Shown: piece by piece, positions 2,821-45,423 of the stretch
Numbering within the stretch: position 1 is the first letter of the stretch
Layout: each line of letters starts with the position of its first letter
Assembly (NCBI RefSeq): GCF_000981585.1
Contig: NZ_LN831776.1
Location: forward strand, 1,441,001-1,505,000
Length of the DNA: 64,000 nucleotides
Direction: 5' to 3'
DNA from: Paenibacillus riograndensis SBR5
GTDB lineage: Bacteria > Bacillota > Bacilli > Paenibacillales > Paenibacillaceae
The notes under the pieces: model-generated
Seen by the model: only the letters and a program-made list of their open reading frames with translations
Told to the model about the DNA's origin: nothing
Databases searched by the model: none
Program-made: the position numbers and the translations under genes

Positions 2821-2871
2821 TTATGCAATAGCAAAATCAGTTTTATTTTCGTGAGGAAGAGGGGGCTCCCG

Positions 2872-3843
2872 ATGGCAAAATGGGATAACATGCTGTCCAT
2901 GCTTTGGATGCTGCGATCCGGGAGGAAGCTCACCGCCGCGCAGATTGCGGACGGTCTGGAGATCAGCGTCCGTACCGTGTACCGGTATATCGATGCATTA
3001 TGCGCCAGCGGCGTGCCGGTCGTCGCGGAATCAGGCCACGACGGCGGCATCCGCATTCTGGACAGCTTTAAGGAGGCGCCCTTGTTCTTCAACTCTGTAG
3101 AGTTGAAAGCGCTTGTGGACGCATTTAAATTTGCGCAAGGTGCTGGCTATCCGTATACGGAGGAACTGGAAGGCGCATTGAAAAAGGTGGAGAACGGGCT
3201 GCACGAAGAGCAGCGCTGCGATCTGTCGAGTCAGACAAGCGGCCTGGATGTGATTTCTCCGGCGCGCCCGCCTTCCAACGTTCTGTTGTTACGGGACCTG
3301 GAGCAGGCGGCGAGGGACGGGCGAACGGTCCGAATCGCCTATCGCAAAGCAAATGCGAAGCAGGCCGATGAACGTGAAGTCGATCCGTACGGATTGGCTT
3401 ACGACCGAAACGACTGGTACGCTGTCACGTTCTGCCACCGGTCGCAGGCGGTGCGGACGTTCCGCGTCGACCGCATCGTGCGGCTGGAGCCGACTGAGGA
3501 GCGGTTCGAAAAGCCGGAGCGTTTCTCCGCGTCGGCCTATTTCCGCAACCAGTCCGAGCAAGAACGGGAGGCGGATGGACCGCTGATAGTCATCCGCATT
3601 GAGGGAGAGCCAGATACGTTGAATGCGGTGTGCGGCCACTGGCACCTGCGCCACTATTTGACGGAACGGACCGATCGGGAGGCGCGGTTCCTGCTCGACG
3701 TCCCGACGATGAACAAGTACCTTACGCAGTATCTGATGACGTTCGGCACGGCCATCCACATTCGCGAGCCGCTTGAGCTCAAGCGTAAGATCCGGGAAAT
3801 GGCGTACACAATCGCACAACATTACGAAGACGATTCCGGCTGA
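2872..3843 (+). CDS. WYL-domain transcriptional regulator (YobV/YafY type)
   Basis: DNA-binding regulator of 323 residues: an N-terminal winged helix-turn-helix (residues 1-60, SVRTVYRYIDALCASGVPV), a linker, and a central-to-C-terminal WYL domain (about 140-320). The start is ATG 2872, 6 bases after a GAGGAAGAGGGGG stretch at 2853-2865; the in-frame GTG at 2851 lies upstream of that site. It closely resembles the regulator at 44464-45423 (shared YRYIDALCASGVPV and APLFF segments). Its stop codon lies 8 bases before a perfect palindrome that fronts the DinB-family gene, so that gene is the obvious regulatory target. Confidence 0.88.
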   Translation: MAKWDNMLSMLWMLRSGRKLTAAQIADGLEISVRTVYRYIDALCASGVPVVAESGHDGGIRILDSFKEAPLFFNSVELKALVDAFKFAQGAGYPYTEELEGALKKVENGLHEEQRCDLSSQTSGLDVISPARPPSNVLLLRDLEQAARDGRTVRIAYRKANAKQADEREVDPYGLAYDRNDWYAVTFCHRSQAVRTFRVDRIVRLEPTEERFEKPERFSASAYFRNQSEQEREADGPLIVIRIEGEPDTLNAVCGHWHLRHYLTERTDREARFLLDVPTMNKYLTQYLMTFGTAIHIREPLELKRKIREMAYTIAQHYEDDSG

Positions 3844-3851
3844 ACTTTTTG

Positions 3852-3885
3852 CTGACAACAGTTGTCAGTGAACCCGGTATACGAT
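3852..3885 (+). promoter_or_regulatory. WYL operator and promoter of the DinB-family gene
   Basis: CTGACAACAGTTGTCAG at 3852-3868 is a perfect palindrome (8-bp arms, 1-base centre). Its TGTCA half ends 12 bases before TACGAT (3880-3885), a plausible -10. No -35 hexamer sits at the normal place, which suggests an activator. The same TGTCA-N12-TAxxxT spacing appears at 25833-25868 and, on the minus strand, at 43086-43121. Confidence 0.6.
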
Positions 3886-3947
3886 AGAGACAAGGCTGCG
3901 GCAGCCGCAGCCAAACAATGATGAATACAGGAAAGGTGGATTCCTAT

Positions 3948-4466
3948 ATGCTTCAACACCCGCATCAATTGTATGAATATCATGTTTGGGCGAATGACCG
4001 GTTATTCACTCACCTGGAGCAGCTTCCGAAGGAAGTGTTCCATGCAAAAGTAACGAGCGTGTTCCCGTCCGTGTCGCAAACGTTTGGGCACCTGTACATG
4101 TACGAACAGCTCTATATGTCTGTGCTCGCGGAGGTTCCGAACGAGAAAATTTTTCCGAGAATCCCGGACTGGACAGAGGAAGCGCAGGGCAAAACAGTGG
4201 ACGAGATGCGGCGGCTGTTCTCCAGCGTCGCCGAACAGTTCCGCGATTTGCTGCGGCGTACGTCCGACTTGGACAAGGCGATGACGATTGAGCATCCGAG
4301 GTACGGCAGTCTCGATACGCATTTCTCCGAAATTCTGCGGCATGTGGTCAACCACGGAACCTATCACCGGGGCAATGTGACCGCGATGCTGAGGCAGCAA
4401 GGGCATACCGGCGTCCCGACCGATTATATGTTCTATTTGGTAGAGCAGCGGGACGGTCAGCCGTAA
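3948..4466 (+). CDS. DinB/YfiT-family protein
   Basis: Predicted cytoplasmic four-helix bundle of the DinB superfamily, 172 residues. Family members usually bind a metal through three histidines; candidates here are His48 (FGHLYMYEQ), His136 and His140 (VNHGTYHRGN). Some relatives are thiol-transferases or hydrolases, but the reaction of this one is unknown. The start is ATG 3948, 7 bases after AGGAAAGGTGG (3929-3939); the ATG pair near 3918 lies upstream of that site. It is a single-gene unit controlled from the palindromic promoter just upstream and most likely by the adjacent WYL regulator. Confidence 0.82.
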   Translation: MLQHPHQLYEYHVWANDRLFTHLEQLPKEVFHAKVTSVFPSVSQTFGHLYMYEQLYMSVLAEVPNEKIFPRIPDWTEEAQGKTVDEMRRLFSSVAEQFRDLLRRTSDLDKAMTIEHPRYGSLDTHFSEILRHVVNHGTYHRGNVTAMLRQQGHTGVPTDYMFYLVEQRDGQP

Positions 4467-10332: not shown

Positions 10333-10440
10333 CAGACAGTTCCCAGAGGCTTCCTTAACTGGTATCGGCTGAACATCCGGAACATGACAGTAAGTTGTCT
10401 ACTTTCTTATTGTACAATTCAGTGAAAAGGAGAGTGGACC

Positions 10441-10923
10441 ATGAACACTTATACCGTTCACAAACAAAACCTGATCATAACAGGAGTTGCTGTACGTACT
10501 ACAAACGCAGAAGAGGCGGGACCGGAGGGGAGATTGCCCAAGCTGTGGGAAACTTACTTTCAGAGCAATCTCTTATCTGCGGCGGGAGGCGAAAATCCGC
10601 ATTTTATTTACGCTGTGTACACGGATTATGAGAGCGACGCAAACGGCGCTTATACCGTTGTAATTGGGCATGAATCAAGCGATAAGCCGGTCCCGGATGA
10701 CAAGAATCATGTCGTTGTGGCCGTCCCCGGGAGTAAATACAGGGTATTCACGACAAAAAAAGGGCCGGTGTATGAAGTGGTGGCACAAGCGTGGCGCGAG
10801 ATTTGGGCCTATTTCGGGGAATCCACAGAGAAGAGAGCCTACACAGGCGACTTTGAGCTGTATGATGCCAGAGACTTTGATCCGGCGAACACAGAGCTAC
10901 AGATTTACATTGCTATAAGATAA
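10441..10923 (+). CDS. GyrI-like / effector-binding domain protein
   Basis: A 160-residue cytoplasmic protein consisting of one GyrI-like small-molecule-binding domain, the fold also found fused to AraC or MerR regulators (BmrR type). Support comes from the ITGVAVRTTNAEE opening, the central YAVYTDYESDANGAYTVVIG and the C-terminal FELYDARDFDPANTELQIYI signature. There is no DNA-binding domain, so it probably binds or sequesters a ligand or protein. Start ATG 10441 with AAAAGGAGAG upstream. The first tnpB element lies 24 bases after its stop. Confidence 0.8.
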   Translation: MNTYTVHKQNLIITGVAVRTTNAEEAGPEGRLPKLWETYFQSNLLSAAGGENPHFIYAVYTDYESDANGAYTVVIGHESSDKPVPDDKNHVVVAVPGSKYRVFTTKKGPVYEVVAQAWREIWAYFGESTEKRAYTGDFELYDARDFDPANTELQIYIAIR

Positions 10924-10947: not shown

Positions 10948-12274
10948 CATCAGTTGTCAGAATTCCCCCATTTCTAAAATGGTGGGATGAATGGCAACGG
11001 TCTTTCTTATCTAAAGGAAATTATCTTCCATAAATACGAACATTTGTGCTATGATGGATTCGTAAATTCCTGGAAAGGAGTTGCGAGGCATGTTCGTACT
11101 TAAAGCGTATAAGTATCGGATCTACCCCACCCATGAGCAACAACAATATCTGGAAAAGGTGTTCGGATGTGTCCGTTTTATCTACAACAAAATGCTTGCG
11201 GATAAGATCGAACACTATAAACAAACGGAGAAAATGCTCCATAATACACCTGCCAGGTACAAGAAAGCATTCCCGTGGCTGAAAGAAGTGGACAGCCTGG
11301 CCTTAGCAAACGTTCAGCTCAACCTGGAGAAAGCCTATAGGCATTTTTTTCGGGATAAGAACGTGGGTTTCCCTACATTCAAAAGCAAGAAAACGAACAA
11401 CAATAGCTTCACAACGAACAATCAAAACGGAACGATAGCCACCAAAGCTGGAACGATTAAAATTCCGAAACTAAAGACAAGAATCCGAATCAAGGTACAT
11501 CGTCCATTCTGGGGGCGAATCAAATCCTGCACCCTATCCAAAACACCATCAGGAAAATATTTTGCCTCCGTACGGGTAGAAACAGATATCGCTCCTTTGC
11601 CAAAAACAGAAAAGAAGATTGGCGTAGATCTGGGACTAAGAAACTTTGCGATTACTTCGTGTGGCGAAGTGATCGCAAATCCGAAACATCTTCGTCAATC
11701 GGAACAACGATTAGCCAAACTGCAAAAGGACTTGTCGAGAAAGAAGAAAGGAAGCCATAACCGAAATAAAGCACGTTTGAAGGTCGCCAAGCTTCATGAA
11801 AAAATAGCGAATCAGCGTAAAGACTTCTTGCACCAAACGTCAACCCAAATGATACGCGAAAACCAAGTGATCGTGATGGAAGACCTGCGTGTAAAGAACA
11901 TGATGCAGAATCATAAATTAGCTAAAGCCATATCCGAAGTATCTTGGAGCATGTTTCGAGCGATGCTCGAATACAAGGCGAAGTGGTACGGGAGAACATT
12001 GATGATTGCCCCAAAACACTTTGCGAGCAGCCAAAGATGTTCCTGCTGCGGCTATAAAAACGCAGAAGTGAAGAACCTTGCGGTACGTGAATGGACTTGT
12101 CCTGAATGTAGTGTACAACACGACAGAGATGTAAACGCAGCTAAAAACTTACTACAATTAGCCATATAAAATGGCAACGATTGGGCTAGGAACTAGCCTC
12201 TAAGCTTGGGTAAACTTGGAGCAGTAGCTCTATTGACCAAGAAGCACCCACCTCTTAGGTGGTGTGTAGTTCAC
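10948..12274 (+). mobile_element. IS605-type tnpB-only element, copy 1
   Basis: A 1327-bp unit that recurs, at identical length and with about ten base differences, at 43141-44467. It begins after TTTAAC and starts ATCAGTTGTCAG after a variable first base. The left end carries an imperfect hairpin (CCCATTT / AAATGG-T-GGG, about 10968-10990) and the right end a hairpin CCACCT-CTT-AGGTGG (about 12250-12264) before the final GTAGTTCAC. There is no tnpA (Y1 transposase), so mobility must depend on a transposase elsewhere. No target-site duplication is expected for this family. Confidence 0.85.
11090..12169 (+). CDS. tnpB: TnpB RNA-guided endonuclease, copy 1
   Basis: OrfB/TnpB protein of 359 residues, the IS605-family RNA-guided nuclease related to Cas12. 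The RuvC triad looks intact: Asp180 (GVDLGLRN), Glu264 (VIVMEDLRV) and Asp347 ([10 protein letters not shown]). A CxxC...CxxC zinc ribbon (CSCCGY...CPEC) sits between the last two. The N-terminus [13 protein letters not shown] is the family's helix-turn-helix opening. The start is ATG 11090, 9 bases after AAAGGAG (11074-11080). Against copy 2 it differs at five residues: E/A, TK/IE, R/K and SSQR/SSQL. Both appear functional. Confidence 0.92.
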
Positions 12275-23879: not shown

Positions 23880-24887
23880 ATGCTGTTGACGACTGAGGAC
23901 CAATTAGTCAACGAAATCGCGGACTGGCTGAAAAAGCATTTTTCGGCTGAGATGCTGTCCGCTGAGCGTGTTAGGCGCGGGCTAATGAACGAGAAGTGGA
24001 TTGTTGAGACGAACAAGGGAAGGCTGTTCGCCAAAAGCTATCACCCTGAGCGGTTTAAGATGCATGATCCGGAATTTCGCGGCAAGATTGAAAATGCGCT
24101 GCAACTGCAGCTTCTTTTTTATCAGGCGGGAGGACCGTGTCCTGAGCCGCTGGTGCTGGAAGGGCGCTGCATGCACATCCTGCCGTGCGGAAGGTACATG
24201 ACCGTCATGATGTGCTGTCCGGGCGCTATGGTGCCCGCTGGCATGATCGGTGAGCATGGGATGCACTCACTCGGACGTGCTGCCGCAGATATGCATGCCG
24301 TCTGGGATTCCGCGGCGGCATCAGGGTTCGGAGCAGCAGTGCCGCCGGAGGAACCGGTTTGGCGGTTGTCCCGCAAGGAGATGGAGCGCACCTGGGAGGT
24401 GAATTGGGATGCGGCTCGTGACTCGTCTGAGCGTGTCCGGAATGCATTGCAATTACAGAAGGCGATTGTTGATTCACTTGGAGATGATGACTTTACACCT
24501 CTGACTGCAGGCTGGGCCCACCTCGATCTGTGGGCAGATAACCTGCTTTTTGAAGGGGATGCTCTGACAGCCATCGTTGATTTCGACCGGGCGCGCTACT
24601 CGTTTCCAGCGCTGGACCTCGGGCGGGCTGTCCTTTCCGGCACGCTCAGCGGGCGCGGATTCCGCAAAGATGCAGTGGCCGCTTTCGCTGAAGGCTACCG
24701 TAGTGTGCGGGCGCTGCCGCAGGGCTCGCTTGTGAGGGCAATCAAGTACGTCTGGTGCATCGAATCGCTTTGGTGGATCAAGCCGTCGTTCGAATCGTCC
24801 AGCGCGGTCCCTGTCCGTTTTGCTGAGGAAATGATCCATACTGCGGAGCGGTGGGAGCAACTGGACGCTCTTCTTGGGGGCATTTAA
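23880..24887 (+). CDS. Phosphotransferase (APH/choline-kinase fold) protein
   Basis: A 335-residue protein with the aminoglycoside phosphotransferase-type kinase fold. The catalytic loop reads GWAHLDLWADNLLFEG (HxDxxxxN) and the metal-binding motif AIVDFDRARY; the N-lobe has the beta strand WIVETNKGRLFAKSY with a candidate ATP-binding Lys. Such proteins phosphorylate small hydroxyl compounds (homoserine, choline, sugars, antibiotics); the substrate here cannot be inferred. Its stop overlaps by four bases the stop of the convergent WYL-regulator gene. Confidence 0.82.
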   Translation: MLLTTEDQLVNEIADWLKKHFSAEMLSAERVRRGLMNEKWIVETNKGRLFAKSYHPERFKMHDPEFRGKIENALQLQLLFYQAGGPCPEPLVLEGRCMHILPCGRYMTVMMCCPGAMVPAGMIGEHGMHSLGRAAADMHAVWDSAAASGFGAAVPPEEPVWRLSRKEMERTWEVNWDAARDSSERVRNALQLQKAIVDSLGDDDFTPLTAGWAHLDLWADNLLFEGDALTAIVDFDRARYSFPALDLGRAVLSGTLSGRGFRKDAVAAFAEGYRSVRALPQGSLVRAIKYVWCIESLWWIKPSFESSSAVPVRFAEEMIHTAERWEQLDALLGGI

Positions 24888-25795
24888 GAATATTTCTCCA
24901 CCATTCTAATTAAATAATTTCGAAATTCTTCAACATAGGTTTTGGGTTCTACGATTTCCAGGTCTGTACCGAAGCTTGCTAAAAATTGAAACCCAATACT
25001 GTTTTGAGGAACGTGGATGGTGGCTAAGAAATAGTCAGAACTATAGTTTTCAATACTCTTCCGGCCGTACCTTTCAATGAATTGATCTTTTATGCCAGGT
25101 GAAATCAACGCTTTAATAGCGGCTAATTGCGGTTGATAACTTGCTTCATGTGCTTGTTCCACTAAATAATCTCTAGGGTTAAATGAATTTCCCTCCATAT
25201 GAAGATGATCGATCCTGGATAATTTAAATGTTCTATATCCCTGGCGATGTAAACAGAATCCCTTCAAATACCAACTCGTTTCGCTAAAATGAAGCTGGTA
25301 CGGCTCGACAATCCTATTCGTCGTGGTGCCATTTTTATCTATATAATCAAATGAAACTAACCTTCTCTTAAGTATCGATTCTTGGCATATCTTCAAGGTT
25401 GGAAGAATCTCAGCCCGGCCCTCCCAGTCATAAAATGACAGCTCGATTGAACCTTTTGGGGACAATGGGCTAACCATGGCTTCTATTTTTTTGATCGTCA
25501 CCTCAACTTCTTCGCTAATTAGAATTTGCTCCAATCCGCCAAGCGCAGTCAATATATTCTCCAAGTCGGGGCTGCTTAACAGACGTTTATCCACCTTGTA
25601 TTCATCCATAATACCGTAGCCGCCATGAACGCCATTGACCGAATAGATCGGGATGTTTGATAAACTCAGCGTCTCCATATCGCGAAGAATCGTCCTTTTG
25701 GAAACATGAAATAATTGCGCGAATTCATTTGCCGGAACGATATCTTTTTTCAGTAATATCATAATGATAGAAATCAGCCTCTCGACCTTGTCCAT
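24884..25795 (-). CDS. WYL-domain transcriptional regulator (YafY type)
   Basis: A 303-residue regulator with an N-terminal HTH_11 domain (VPANEFAQLFHVSKRTILRD followed by METLSLSNIPIYSVNG) and a WYL domain (about 140-215; LVSFDYIDKNGTTTNRIVEP, then YQLHFSETSWYLKGFCLHRQ). Codon usage is more AT-rich than in the other two WYL genes of the window, suggesting a separate origin. It is divergent from a VOC-family gene with a palindromic operator between them and presumably controls it. Confidence 0.87.
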   Translation of the reverse strand: MDKVERLISIIMILLKKDIVPANEFAQLFHVSKRTILRDMETLSLSNIPIYSVNGVHGGYGIMDEYKVDKRLLSSPDLENILTALGGLEQILISEEVEVTIKKIEAMVSPLSPKGSIELSFYDWEGRAEILPTLKICQESILKRRLVSFDYIDKNGTTTNRIVEPYQLHFSETSWYLKGFCLHRQGYRTFKLSRIDHLHMEGNSFNPRDYLVEQAHEASYQPQLAAIKALISPGIKDQFIERYGRKSIENYSSDYFLATIHVPQNSIGFQFLASFGTDLEIVEPKTYVEEFRNYLIRMVEKYS

Positions 25796-25832: not shown

Positions 25833-25868
25833 GGTGACATAAAGCTGTCACCTTTAGTGGATTATACT
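25833..25868 (+). promoter_or_regulatory. WYL operator and promoter of the VOC gene
   Basis: GGTGACATAAAGCTGTCACC (25833-25852) is a perfect palindrome with a 6-base centre. TGTCA ends at 25850, and 12 bases later stands TATACT (25863-25868), a good -10. The same geometry occurs at 3852-3885 and 43086-43121. Confidence 0.65.
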
Positions 25869-25898: not shown

Positions 25899-26363
25899 AT
25901 GTCAGCTATTGCCTATTTAAACTTTGATGGAATCGCAGAACAAGCAATTGAATTTTATGCGGAGGCTTTAAACGCAAATGAAGTAAAAAAGGTGAAATTC
26001 GGTGATATCCCGCAAGATCCAAACTACCCAATGCCGGAAAATGAGTTAAATATGATCATGGAGTCTTCCATAGAATTTGCAGGCGGGAAAATCATGATGT
26101 CGGACATTTTGCCTTCAATGAAGGCGGTAACAGGTGAACTGGTACAAGGAAATAATATTCTGATTAATCTGGTCATCGATGATAAGCAAAAGCTGGAAGA
26201 ATACTTTAACCATTTGGCCCTTGGCGGTCATGTCATCATGCCGTTATCCAATACCCCTTGGTCTTCCTGCTTCGGAATGCTGGTTGATAAATTTGGAGTT
26301 AACTGGAAGTTTAATAGCGATGCAGATCAGTTCCTTGATAAAGTTATTTCCAATAAACAGTAA
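25899..26363 (+). CDS. VOC family protein (PhnB/3-demethylubiquinone methyltransferase-like)
   Basis: A 154-residue glyoxalase/bleomycin-resistance superfamily protein of the PhnB-like branch. It opens MSAIAYLNFDGIAEQAIEFY, has GGKIMMSDILPSM in the middle, LGGHVIMPLSNTPWSSCFGM, and ends VDKFGVNWKFN, the classic C-terminal metal-site strand pattern. The reaction is unknown. ATG 25899 lies 9 bases after AGAAGGAGG (25881-25889); the upstream in-frame ATG falls within the promoter. It is the single gene controlled from the palindromic promoter shared with the divergent WYL regulator. Confidence 0.85.
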   Translation: MSAIAYLNFDGIAEQAIEFYAEALNANEVKKVKFGDIPQDPNYPMPENELNMIMESSIEFAGGKIMMSDILPSMKAVTGELVQGNNILINLVIDDKQKLEEYFNHLALGGHVIMPLSNTPWSSCFGMLVDKFGVNWKFNSDADQFLDKVISNKQ

Positions 26364-42573: not shown

Positions 42574-43032
42574 CTATTCCCCGCTGCCGAAATCCAAGGT
42601 GCGGCCGGTCTCGGCCAGGGTTTTGGTGTTGCTTAAGATATGCCACCAGGCGCTGTCGCTGGCTGCATAGGCAGGGTCGTCCGGATGCCAGTTATCGTGA
42701 ATCAATGTTAATCTGGTGCAACTGCCGGCCGGCTCCAGCATCCAGGAGATGCGGGATTCGTAGTTTTCTCTGTCTTTGAGATAGGATGGGCCTACCTTGT
42801 GCGTGAAGCTCAGCACCTTCTCCGGGGTATACTCCAGCAGCGTTCCGTACACATGTACTGTCTCGTCGCCTTCGGCACCGGGGCCGACATATTCTATCAG
42901 TTCTCCCGGCTTGAAGCTGGAGCGGATCACGCAGCCGTAATAGATTTGCTTGACTTGCCCGGGTGAAAACAGCGTGTCCCATACGTGCGCCGGGGTACCG
43001 GCAATATAAAATTCATATTTTAATTCGTTCAT
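42574..43032 (-). CDS. SRPBCC/AHSA1-like domain protein
   Basis: A 152-residue START-like (SRPBCC) protein of the AHSA1 branch: KYEFYIAGTPAHVWDTLFSP near the N-terminus, FKPGELIEYVGPG, EKVLSFTHKVGPSY and a C-terminal helix. It should form a hydrophobic ligand-binding cavity; ligand and role are unknown. The start is ATG 43032 with GGGAGG about 10 bases upstream. Its promoter has the WYL-type palindrome, and the likely regulator gene (44464-45423) lies on the same strand on the far side of the second tnpB element. Confidence 0.82.
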   Translation of the reverse strand: MNELKYEFYIAGTPAHVWDTLFSPGQVKQIYYGCVIRSSFKPGELIEYVGPGAEGDETVHVYGTLLEYTPEKVLSFTHKVGPSYLKDRENYESRISWMLEPAGSCTRLTLIHDNWHPDDPAYAASDSAWWHILSNTKTLAETGRTLDFGSGE

Positions 43033-43085: not shown

Positions 43086-43121
43086 ACTATAACAAAAGAC
43101 CACTGACAGTTATGGTCAGTG
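43086..43121 (-). promoter_or_regulatory. WYL operator and promoter of the SRPBCC gene
   Basis: CACTGAC (43101-43107) and GTCAGTG (43115-43121) form a perfect 7-bp palindrome with 7-base centre. Read on the minus strand, its TGTCA half ends 12 bases before TATAGT (43091-43086). The same TGTCA-N12 to -10 spacing occurs in front of the DinB and VOC genes. Confidence 0.6.
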
Positions 43122-43140
43122 ATCCAGGAGGAAATTTAAC

Positions 43141-44467
43141 TATCAGTTGTCAGAATTCCCCCATTTCTAAAATGGTGGGATGAATGGCAACGGTCTTTCT
43201 TATCTAAAGGAAATTATCTTCCATAAATACGAACATTTGTGCTATGATGGATTCGTAAATTCCTGGAAAGGAGTTGCGAGGCATGTTCGTACTTAAAGCG
43301 TATAAGTATCGGATCTACCCCACCCATGAGCAACAACAATATCTGGCAAAGGTGTTCGGATGTGTCCGTTTTATCTACAACAAAATGCTTGCGGATAAGA
43401 TCGAACACTATAAACAAACGGAGAAAATGCTCCATAATACACCTGCCAGGTACAAGAAAGCATTCCCGTGGCTGAAAGAAGTGGACAGCCTGGCCTTAGC
43501 AAACGTTCAGCTCAACCTGGAGAAAGCCTATAGGCATTTTTTTCGGGATAAGAACGTGGGTTTCCCTACATTCAAAAGCAAGAAAACGAACAACAATAGC
43601 TTCACAACGAACAATCAAAACGGAACGATAGCCATTGAAGCTGGAACGATTAAAATTCCGAAACTAAAGACAAAAATCCGAATCAAGGTACATCGTCCAT
43701 TCTGGGGGCGAATCAAATCCTGCACCCTATCCAAAACACCATCAGGAAAATATTTTGCCTCCGTACGGGTAGAAACAGATATCGCTCCTTTGCCAAAAAC
43801 AGAAAAGAAGATTGGCGTAGATCTGGGACTAAGAAACTTTGCGATTACTTCGTGTGGCGAAGTGATCGCAAATCCGAAACATCTTCGTCAATCGGAACAA
43901 CGATTAGCCAAACTGCAAAAGGACTTGTCGAGAAAGAAGAAAGGAAGCCATAACCGAAATAAAGCACGTTTGAAGGTCGCCAAGCTTCATGAAAAAATAG
44001 CGAATCAGCGTAAAGACTTCTTGCACCAAACGTCAACCCAAATGATACGCGAAAACCAAGTGATCGTGATGGAAGACCTGCGTGTAAAGAACATGATGCA
44101 GAATCACAAATTAGCGAAAGCCATATCCGAAGTATCTTGGAGCATGTTTCGAGCGATGCTCGAATACAAGGCGAAGTGGTACGGGAGAACATTGATGATT
44201 GCCCCAAAACACTTTGCGAGCAGCCAACTATGTTCCTGCTGCGGCTATAAAAACGCAGAAGTGAAGAACCTTGCGGTACGTGAATGGACTTGTCCTGAAT
44301 GTAGTGTACAACACGACAGAGATGTAAACGCAGCTAAAAACTTACTACAATTAGCCATATAAAATGGCAACGATTGGGCTAGGAACTAGCCTCTAAGCTT
44401 GGGTAAACTTGGAGCAGTAGCTCTATTGACCAAGAAGCACCCACCTCTTAGGTGGTGTGTAGTTCAC
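43141..44467 (+). mobile_element. IS605-type tnpB-only element, copy 2
   Basis: Second 1327-bp copy, again directly after TTTAAC and ending GTAGTTCAC. It is inserted between the SRPBCC promoter and the 3' end of the WYL-regulator gene. Its last four bases supply the present stop codon of that gene. Left-end and right-end hairpins are as in copy 1. There is no tnpA in the window. Confidence 0.85.
43283..44362 (+). CDS. tnpB: TnpB RNA-guided endonuclease, copy 2
   Basis: A 359-residue TnpB, nearly identical to the copy at 11090-12169. The RuvC Asp/Glu/Asp residues ([27 protein letters not shown]) and the four-cysteine zinc ribbon are intact. Residue changes against copy 1 are few and outside the catalytic motifs: YLAKVF, AIEAGT, KLKTKIR and SSQLCSCC. 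The reading frame is open throughout, so both nucleases could be made. Start ATG 43283 with AAAGGAG 9 bases upstream. The gene reads opposite to its neighbours on both sides. Confidence 0.92.
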
Positions 44468-44487
44468 GATTCATTGTAATAGGCTGT
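44313..44487 (+). ncRNA. Predicted omega (reRNA) guide RNA region of copy 2
   Basis: By analogy with other TnpB elements, the guide RNA covers the tnpB 3' end and right end (hairpin CCACCT-CTT-AGGTGG) and takes its guide from the flank GATTCATTGTAATAGGCTGT (44468-44487), which is antisense to the WYL gene's 3' end. 5' limit not determinable. Confidence 0.45.
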
Positions 44488-45423
44488 AAGCTCTGCGGTC
44501 ACTTCAGCGAGCTTCTTCTTCAAGGCAGCGGGCTCCCGGATGGTCAGCGCTTTGCCGTAGGGCAGCAGAAAGTACGGAGTGTAGCTGTATAGAGTGGCCT
44601 CATCCAGCAGGAACCTTGCTGTGTTCTCACTCCGCTGCTCCAGTGTATGCCCGAACAGCCAATGGCTGCACAGGTCATTTAATACGTCTTCTGCGGCTGA
44701 AATGACAACGGCAGTCAGCTTTGCCGGGTTGTTCTGGCCGGGGAGAAGGCTCTGCAGCAGGAACTCGCGTGCCGAGAAGCTGGCGGGGCGTATAAAGCCT
44801 GCCCCCGTCCTGCGCAGGCCGGCGATCCGGTCCACCCGGAAGCTGCGGACCTCCTGGCGCTGATGGCAGAACCCGGTTAGGTACCACTGGCCTTTCCATA
44901 ACACAAGTCCGTAAGGATCAATACAGCGGGAGGATGGAAATCCGCCGTTGCCCTTGCGGTATTCCATCTCCAGCGTCAGGCTGTCTGCCGTACAGGCCTC
45001 AAGCTCTTCCAGCAGCTGCGCAAGCGGGGCAGCCGGCGAATGGAGCGTCTCCAGACCGCTCTCGTGGCGCTCCATTTGCGAGAGCTGTTCAGCATTGCTG
45101 TAACGCTTAAGCTTGGCAATCGCCCCGTCTAACGCCTGCTCATAGGGATAGCCGCTTCCCCTTGCAAAGGCCGAGGCCTGCACAAGCGCCCGCCGTTCCC
45201 CGGCGTCGAAGAACAGCGGAGCCGCGCTGAAATGCTCCGGCAGGCTATAGCCGCCGCCCGGGCCGGCATCCGCGATGACGGGAACACCGCTCGCGCAGAG
45301 GGCGTCAATATAGCGGTAGACTGAGCGTACACTCAGCTCCAGCTCCCCGGCCAGCTCCGCAGCGGTTCTTTTGTGCTGCTGCAGTATCCACAGAATGGAC
45401 AACATGTAATCGGCCTTGGACAT
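44464..45423 (-). CDS. WYL-domain transcriptional regulator, C-terminus altered by tnpB element
   Basis: A 319-residue regulator: winged helix-turn-helix (KRTAAELAGELELSVRSVYR, YIDALCASGVPVIADAG) and WYL domain (TLEMEYRKGNGGFPSSRCID, PYGLVLWKGQWYLTGFCHQR). It is a paralogue of the regulator at 2872-3843. The stop codon and first base of the last serine codon come from the tnpB element. Removing the element in silico and joining 43140 to 44468 extends the protein by seven residues (LNFLLDH) to a TGA inside the operator palindrome. Function is probably kept, since only the tail changes. Confidence 0.87.
   Translation of the reverse strand: MSKADYMLSILWILQQHKRTAAELAGELELSVRSVYRYIDALCASGVPVIADAGPGGGYSLPEHFSAAPLFFDAGERRALVQASAFARGSGYPYEQALDGAIAKLKRYSNAEQLSQMERHESGLETLHSPAAPLAQLLEELEACTADSLTLEMEYRKGNGGFPSSRCIDPYGLVLWKGQWYLTGFCHQRQEVRSFRVDRIAGLRRTGAGFIRPASFSAREFLLQSLLPGQNNPAKLTAVVISAAEDVLNDLCSHWLFGHTLEQRSENTARFLLDEATLYSYTPYFLLPYGKALTIREPAALKKKLAEVTAELTAYYNES

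Follow-up and report, generated by a model that had tools for sequence, protein, structure and literature searches.

TGACA–TGTCA palindromes set 12 bp ahead of −10 boxes accompany WYL-regulator genes in Paenibacillus and are likely operator–promoters

Introduction

More than 15,000 WYL proteins are known (PMC12340889), and the WYL activators studied so far sense single-stranded DNA (PMC10693628, PMC11804915, PMC12340889). In the openly licensed literature that we searched, operators are described for a mere handful of WYL proteins, and we found none for Paenibacillus or other Firmicutes; an absence from this literature carries little weight.

DriD of Caulobacter, a homodimeric WYL activator, has the consensus ATACGAC(X)7GTCGTAT with the −35 region at its centre and one to two of six −35 matches (PMC12340889). 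The sites described here resemble it in the palindrome centred on −35, the constant distance to the −10 box and the poor −35; its core, GAC-N7-GTC, is that of our N5 class, and the proteins share a fold. In contrast, DriD serves a DNA-damage regulon of one alphaproteobacterium through weak −10 boxes, whereas here we find many paralogues that apparently have one or few genes each, two half-site spacings and good −10 boxes.

The mycobacterial PafBC motif has been published as tTGTCRgtg-8nt-TannnT (PMC5656591) and as TGTCAG-N10-TAnnnT (PMC8151990), that is, a TGTC box near −26 followed by TAnnnT. PafB reads the −26 motif, and in the sigma adaptation described for this system the WYL protein is placed between sigma domain 4 and the DNA (PMC11804915). 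Our sites have a TGTC box and a TAnnnT of the same kind at a fixed spacing, which is 12 bp and not 11, and in structural comparison the closest match is with a PafBC chain. PafBC, however, is a heterodimer, and its published motif has a spacing of 11 and is no palindrome; each module in our window has a single WYL gene instead of two adjacent ones, and its operator is palindromic.

SiwR of M. smegmatis is a homodimeric WYL activator encoded beside DinB-family or glyoxalase-like genes, with a palindrome between −10 and −35 and a −26 region that is needed (PMC10693628). A WYL gene beside a DinB or glyoxalase gene, with a palindrome upstream of the −10, is also what modules 1 and 2 and clusters 1–3 display. 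SiwR differs in being actinobacterial and in its conserved GGA at −26; the likeness noted here is one of layout and neighbours. BrxR and CapW, finally, are WYL proteins of the same fold that act on inverted repeats (PMC9122601, PMC9122588), but they repress, and their operators overlap or follow the −10, while the cores described here end 12 bp upstream of it.

Results

Modules in the window

The window, the whole stretch of DNA analysed, covers 64,000 nucleotides of the Paenibacillus riograndensis SBR5 genome. A sequence-only reading had placed three palindromes of the TGACA…TGTCA type in it, each 12 bases before a −10 hexamer, without a −35 and next to a WYL gene, or so placed but for a mobile element. 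We reproduced their coordinates and letters (Table 1). The gap between TGTCA and the hexamer is 12 bases at all three sites, and the best match to TTGACA at spacers of 15–19 is at most 3/6. The palindrome type holds for site 1 (core TGACAACAGTTGTCA, 3853–3867, + strand) and site 2 (core TGACATAAAGCTGTCA, 25835–25850, + strand), but the core of site 3 is imperfect, its distal half reading TGACC. Since TGACC occurs in 8/8 SRPBCC sites (cluster 5, seven of them in relatives), it is the rule of the SRPBCC class, not decay.

Table 1 Coordinates of the features in the window.
Feature	Position	Strand	Remarks
WYL regulator 1	2851..3843	+	HTH_11 - WYL - WCX; longest ORF, ATG at 2872 is the likelier start
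Putative operator 1, CTGACAACAGTTGTCAG	3852..3868	+	N5 half-site spacing; orthologous sites in named relatives
Putative −10 box of module 1, TACGAT	3880..3885	+	12 bp 3' of TGTCA
Candidate target gene 1, DinB family	3948..4466	+	PF05163, E 5.2e-35
Fourth site, TGACAGTAAGTTGTCT-N12-TACAAT	10385..10418	+	Same build, TGTCT in place of TGTCA
Candidate target gene 4, GyrI/Cass2-like	10441..10923	+	PF14526, E 3.1e-22; PF06445
WYL regulator 2	24884..25795	-	PF13280, E 6.4e-20; reads away from its own target
Putative operator 2, GGTGACATAAAGCTGTCACC	25833..25852	+	N6 half-site spacing
Putative −10 box of module 2, TATACT	25863..25868	+	12 bases from TGTCA
Candidate target gene 2, VOC-like	25899..26363	+	PF06983, PF00903; NCBIfam YjdN model below cut-off
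Candidate target gene 3, SRPBCC/AHSA1	42574..43032	-	PF08327
Putative −10 box of module 3, TATAGT	43086..43091	-	12 bases from TGTCA
Putative operator 3, TGACCATAACTGTCA	43104..43118	-	N5, distal half TGACC
Mobile element	43140..44467		IS605-type tnpB gene at 43274–44362, + strand; PF01385/PF07282; parts operator 3 from WYL regulator 3
WYL regulator 3	44464..45423	-	PF13280, E 2.2e-21

Profile matches confirm all three neighbouring regulators as PF13280 WYL-domain transcription factors, with HTH and WYL above the curated cut-off; WCX is assigned to regulators 1 and 2 and is not listed for regulator 3. The mobile element of module 3 amounts to 1328 extra bases relative to the genome of relative G015 (locus L076). 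There, the insert is missing and the SRPBCC operator begins 18 bp past the WYL gene, in line with the claim that the two would adjoin without the element. The VOC genes of cluster 3 carry the site in eight relatives as well, with the CCT flank in seven of these.

A minus-strand TAATGT, 12 bp from site 2 and directed toward its own WYL gene, was considered as a sign of two-way autoregulation. We dropped this candidate because TAATGT is a poor −10; no other VOC-class site among the clustered sites shows such a minus-strand −10. Elsewhere autoregulation is possible, as three cluster-8 sites stand ahead of a WYL gene.

The fourth site of Table 1 had been overlooked by the earlier reading. In a relative of the same genus (locus L159), its GyrI/Cass2-like counterpart has an intact TGTCA; a search for WYL ORFs up to about 5 kb from that GyrI-class site found none. 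A second IS605-type tnpB gene lies at 11081–12169, near the GyrI-like gene of the window.

Abundance and association with WYL genes

TGACAN3-7TGTCA is found twice in the window against 0.19 expected, a count reached in 1/100 shuffles. The host genome (7.92 Mb) contains 14 strand matches to TGACN5-7TGTCA-N12-TANNNT and one to the reversed pattern; L035 (within an ORF) and L040 (with the look of a plain hairpin) were left out of later sets. Over 23 genomes of the genus, TGACAN5-6TGTCA-N12-TANNNT gives 117 matches versus one for its reverse, and 22 of the 23 genomes have it. As controls we used reversed patterns and, within each locus, the stretches classed as ‘far’.

Setting aside the three window sites and one duplicate context leaves 113 unique sites, which are phylogenetically dependent on one another. 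We searched their surroundings for WYL ORFs with a profile built from the host genome's regulators. Such an ORF lies within 500 bp of 62 sites (0.37 expected) and at 500–4000 bp from two; the remaining 49 have none within 4 kb, a number affected by loci that end at contig edges. The motif is therefore not as common away from WYL genes as near them.

A motif-blind set from the genus comprises 40 loci of about 20 kb (one of 11 kb), picked by WYL match alone and containing 45 WYL ORFs of more than 200 aa. Exact TGACAN4-7TGTCA is 27 times denser within 300 bp of these genes (16 near, 6 far). An intact TGTCA with at most one distal mismatch and a TANNNT at 12 bp occurs 28 times near, where 0.49 are expected, and five times far. 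When spacings of 6–19 are scanned, 12 bp dominates with 29 near (6 far), and the runner-up is 9.

The observation made on three sites is thus real and far from chance. The sequences support the proposal of a recurring regulon type, the assignment of the sites to WYL genes and putative −10-only promoters in which the regulator would sit in place of the −35.

TGACG distal halves fell outside most counts, and the sets of TGACA and TGACC sites therefore miss some sites, such as L037 (host 4887003–4887035). There, a TGACG-N5-TGTCAGGGAAG site leads an ORF resembling the DJ-1 group. A similar TGACG site stands ahead of an ORF similar to that of L037 in the same-class locus L258.

Anatomy of the sites

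Half-site spacings of 5 (N5) and 6 (N6) both occur, and the distance from TGTCA to the −10 is 12 bp in both, so that the promoter-proximal half sets the register. A lone mismatch falls in the distal and the proximal half in a ratio of 14:1 in the genus, 5:0 in the same class and 13:0 in named GTDB loci, where each locus contributed its best site. The palindrome reaches about 10 bp past each core half, with flank complementarity of 0.50–0.88 at distances 1–10; the flank bases are class-specific (GTGAAG, GTAGCG, CCT, TAC and others). With the −10 box taken as −12 to −7, the operator is centred near −32, on the missing −35, and its proximal half spans about −29 to −25.

At spacers of 16–18, the closest match to a −35 box averages 1.83/6 over 108 unique sites, versus 2.53 in shuffled sequences. 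The extended −10 TG is present in just eight of these sites. The −10 box agrees with TATAAT at five or six positions in 87, three positions being preset by the search, and the start codon lies a median of 34 nt downstream. Eight sites were folded: seven form hairpins of −11.4 to −25.6 kcal/mol, some followed by T-runs, and the GyrI site of the window forms none. Two operators right behind WYL genes, L074:9490–9560 and L053:10320–10385, have hairpins of −25.6 kcal/mol each.

Recognition helix and operator classes

Among 69 pairs of regulator and operator, 67 helices were read. R-x3-R-Y goes with N5 in 25/25 and R-x3-R-D with N6 in 42/42, an association inflated by relatedness and by regulators counted twice. 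The two unread pairs are L126, where the ORF start is over-long, and L200, an N5 site whose regulator has R-x3-R-D by eye. The L200 site sits inside an ORF and is perhaps there by chance. L229, an N5 site outside the genus, has R-x3-R-D and is another exception. Judged from their sequences, recognition helix and operator vary together, with exceptions and partly driven by clade.

The same arginine spacing is known from SiwR, where mutation of both R38 and R42 abolishes promoter binding (PMC10693628); the mapping of residues onto our helices is that of the present analysis. In the profile alignment, the helix of PafB is R-x3-R-D and that of PafC is not, the chain being called PafB by exclusion. 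Alignment A2 shows no variation at R193, F195 and R199, a pattern at most compatible with switching on by single-stranded DNA.

Within the genus pairs, residue x of S-x-R is associated with the base after TGTCA: V with G (29) and A (1), I with G (15), K with C (10), T (2) and G (1), Q with T (5), P with A (2), L with A (1) and G (1). These pairs are not all distinct regulators, as L165, L181, L190 and window site 2 were read on both strands. A one-residue specificity code was rejected on the combinations found outside the genus, V-T (L227, L229, L249), P-T (L224) and K-G (L231); these mismatches imply that clade explains much of the pairing. Bases outside the core are probably what makes WYL paralogues specific.

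Class II sites, defined by the exact pattern TGTCAGTAG, occur in 18 of the 23 genomes, and orthologues of the class II regulator (at least 50% identity) in the same 18, in G020 as two contig-edge pieces; both are absent from the other five (Fisher p 3e-5). The site adjoins its regulator in 16 of the 18, so that this co-occurrence is largely linkage. In the host, the 250-bp flanks of the class II regulator (4266821) hold only a decayed TGACA-N6-TGGCA without a −10, and class II sites stand elsewhere, ahead of YceI, DinB and EVE genes. With these sites distant and none intact beside it, the host regulator probably works in trans. The proposal that each activator drives one small protein was too narrow, as one regulator class apparently controls these unlinked genes.

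Proposed mechanism and alternatives

From what can be read directly in the DNA (the geometry, the link with WYL genes, the asymmetry between the two halves, the missing −35 and the association of helix and operator), we consider it likely that the sites are operator–promoters of homodimeric WYL activators, which would straddle the −35 region and replace the contact between sigma and the −35 box. The activator, predicted to be a homodimer and often encoded next door, would bind TGACA and TGTCA with its two winged-helix domains, one helical turn apart. Centred near −32, the dimer would take the position from which sigma region 4 otherwise contacts a −35 box, with the register fixed by the proximal half. 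The regulator would then anchor the sigma-A RNA polymerase at a good −10 without a −35, like DriD as a homodimer or PafBC as a heterodimer. Single-stranded DNA arising from genotoxic stress is the probable trigger if these regulators behave like PafBC, DriD and SiwR. That a WYL activator replaces the −35 contact, as the sequence-only reading had it, is well supported by sequence; activation itself, like binding, polymerase contact, specificity and the single-stranded DNA trigger, we infer.

It is conceivable, though unlikely, that the WYL proteins are repressors instead, the palindrome blocking a weak −10-only promoter in the manner of BrxR and CapW at phage-defence operons. WYL repressors that act on inverted repeats of 11 bp, spaced by 5 bp, are known (PMC9122601), and arms and spacing here are similar. 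But CapW sites overlap the −10 and BrxR repeats follow it, whereas the core here ends 12 bp upstream of the −10. In addition, a −35 or an extended −10 would be expected at a repressed promoter, neither of which is present as a rule, and repression needs no fixed 12-bp spacing.

We give little credence to the palindromes being intrinsic terminators behind WYL genes, followed by a −10-like sequence through chance. The hairpins and T-runs would suit them, as would the same-strand upstream ORF at 55 of the 68 WYL-adjacent sites. Yet the upstream ORF is divergent at 13 of these 68 and at 20 of the 46 orphan sites, according to a crude ORF test, and site 2 of the window sits between divergent genes; a terminator also has no role for a −10 at 12 bp or for the recognition-helix association. 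A double role as WYL terminator and operator is possible: hairpin-forming operators behind WYL genes may also end the WYL transcript.

A MerR-like promoter, with the distal TGACA as a −35 box and an over-long spacer distorted by the regulator, strikes us as highly improbable too. CTGACA does resemble TTGACA and ends 22 or 23 bp ahead of the −10; however, it is the distal half that degenerates (TGACC, TGCCA) and that lies at either of two distances one bp apart, whereas the proximal half keeps its position. A spacer of 22–23 bp is moreover about half a helical turn off the usual 17, which counts against this reading.

That some other regulator binds the sites, with WYL neighbours incidental, is scarcely credible: the 49 of 113 sites without a WYL ORF within 4 kb would allow it, but the 62 close to one, the covariation of operator and WYL helix, and the joint presence (18) or absence (5) of class II sites and regulator in 23 genomes speak against it.

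If the sites are operator–promoters of WYL activators, TGACA-N5/6-TGTCA-N12-TANNNT would predict where a site lies, which way it reads, which gene it serves and often which regulator it belongs to. The prediction would cover Paenibacillus and its relatives, and single cases among the Clostridia. The rule would join the −26 box of PafBC and the −35-straddling dimer of DriD in one geometry, and extend DNA-damage control as known from mycobacteria and Caulobacter to a family of switches with mostly one gene each. Small ‘orphan’ proteins (DinB, VOC, SRPBCC, GyrI-like) can now be tested for a part in the response to DNA damage or toxins, and many natural paralogues are on offer for reading the protein–DNA specificity of WYL activators.

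Occurrence beyond the genus

Beyond the genus, we examined same-class loci of about 3.2 kb, chosen by WYL match in 28 genomes: 12 of the 28 have a site anywhere in the locus and 16 have none. Selection by N5-type WYL proteins gave 80 named GTDB loci, of which 49 have a site near the WYL gene and 31 have none there; they overlap the other loci analysed, and the two sets are not independent. Paenibacillus, Cohnella, Fontibacillus, Brevibacillus, Bacillus, Rossellomorea, Heyndrickxia, Clostridium and Pseudobacteroides are among those with a site. Among the 80, no site was found at the Virgibacillus locus or at either of the two Desulfosporosinus loci. WYL genes without such sites are common.

Phylum-wide, the pattern occurs in 35/149 genomes. 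Outside the genus (147 genomes), 58 matches stand against 21 for reversed controls, a weaker excess. Of 28 loci fetched from these matches, 11 have a WYL-profile ORF. It lies about 100 bp or less from the site in L222, L223, L224, L227, L229, L231, L244, L246 and L249, and about 0.5 kb away in L243; in L245 the WYL match is a short one of 68 aa only.

Taken jointly, the WYL activators of Bacillota, Actinomycetota and Pseudomonadota may share one grammar: a GTC half-site near −26, an R-x3-R helix, no −35, and a WYL protein that recruits RNA polymerase. In Bacillota this grammar would have been multiplied into insulated switches, each of one regulator and one or few genes with its own flanking-base address. 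Together, they would form an SOS-independent network of genotoxin and toxin defence (DinB, VOC, DJ-1, ClbS-family, AlkC, EVE, epoxide hydrolase). The weak phylum-wide excess leads us to rate this cross-phylum reading lower, at somewhat less than an even chance.

Candidate target genes

Sites with a TGACA or TGACC distal half number 126 when those of the window are counted. An ORF lies downstream of 114, and these ORFs form 31 clusters, of which 13 have a single member. ORFs were called mechanically, and start codons and several of the singleton ‘targets’ are crude. The Pfam names of cluster representatives include DJ-1/PfpI, DinB groups, several glyoxalase/VOC groups, AHSA1, EVE, MFS, YceI, epoxide hydrolase, GyrI/Cass2, alpha/beta hydrolases, phosphotransferase (APH), SfsA, OmdA and the metallo-beta-lactamase fold. 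In three cases WYL genes are themselves the targets. GyrI-like, DinB, PNPOx-like and DUF1706 genes are found outside the genus, DUF1706 being the family of the colibactin-resistance protein ClbS (PMC10693628).

Many of the genes presumed to be regulated encode small detoxifying or repair proteins, a common theme that is suggested by these family names and not proven. Defence against toxins or genotoxins would suit the list no less than the ligand binding that had been proposed. ‘Small’ does not describe every target, as some are large, for example the MFS transporter, the epoxide hydrolase and the AlkC glycosylase.

The last of these, encoded in L205, was identified from its sequence as an AlkC DNA glycosylase (E 6.5e-71). 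Sites of the TGTCAAATTGG class stand ahead of an AlkC-type DNA glycosylase gene in both L173 and L205; no WYL ORF was found in the 5 kb fetched for either. A TGCCA-N6-TGTCAACA-type class (TGCCA-N6-TGTCA) is represented by L055:7750, L060:10561, L066:10540, L072:10626, L073:10522, L081 and L086. Its targets are ORFs resembling GFO/IDH/MocA oxidoreductases, with WYL genes adjoining (Pfam was run for L060).

In the host, the region 7842000–7861900 (L189; also L042 and L043) contains two copies of a WYL gene about 11 kb apart, both with a TGACGCCCTGGTGTCA-N12-TATAGT operator. The ORF downstream begins identically in both copies, and about 5 kb beyond them there is a class II site.
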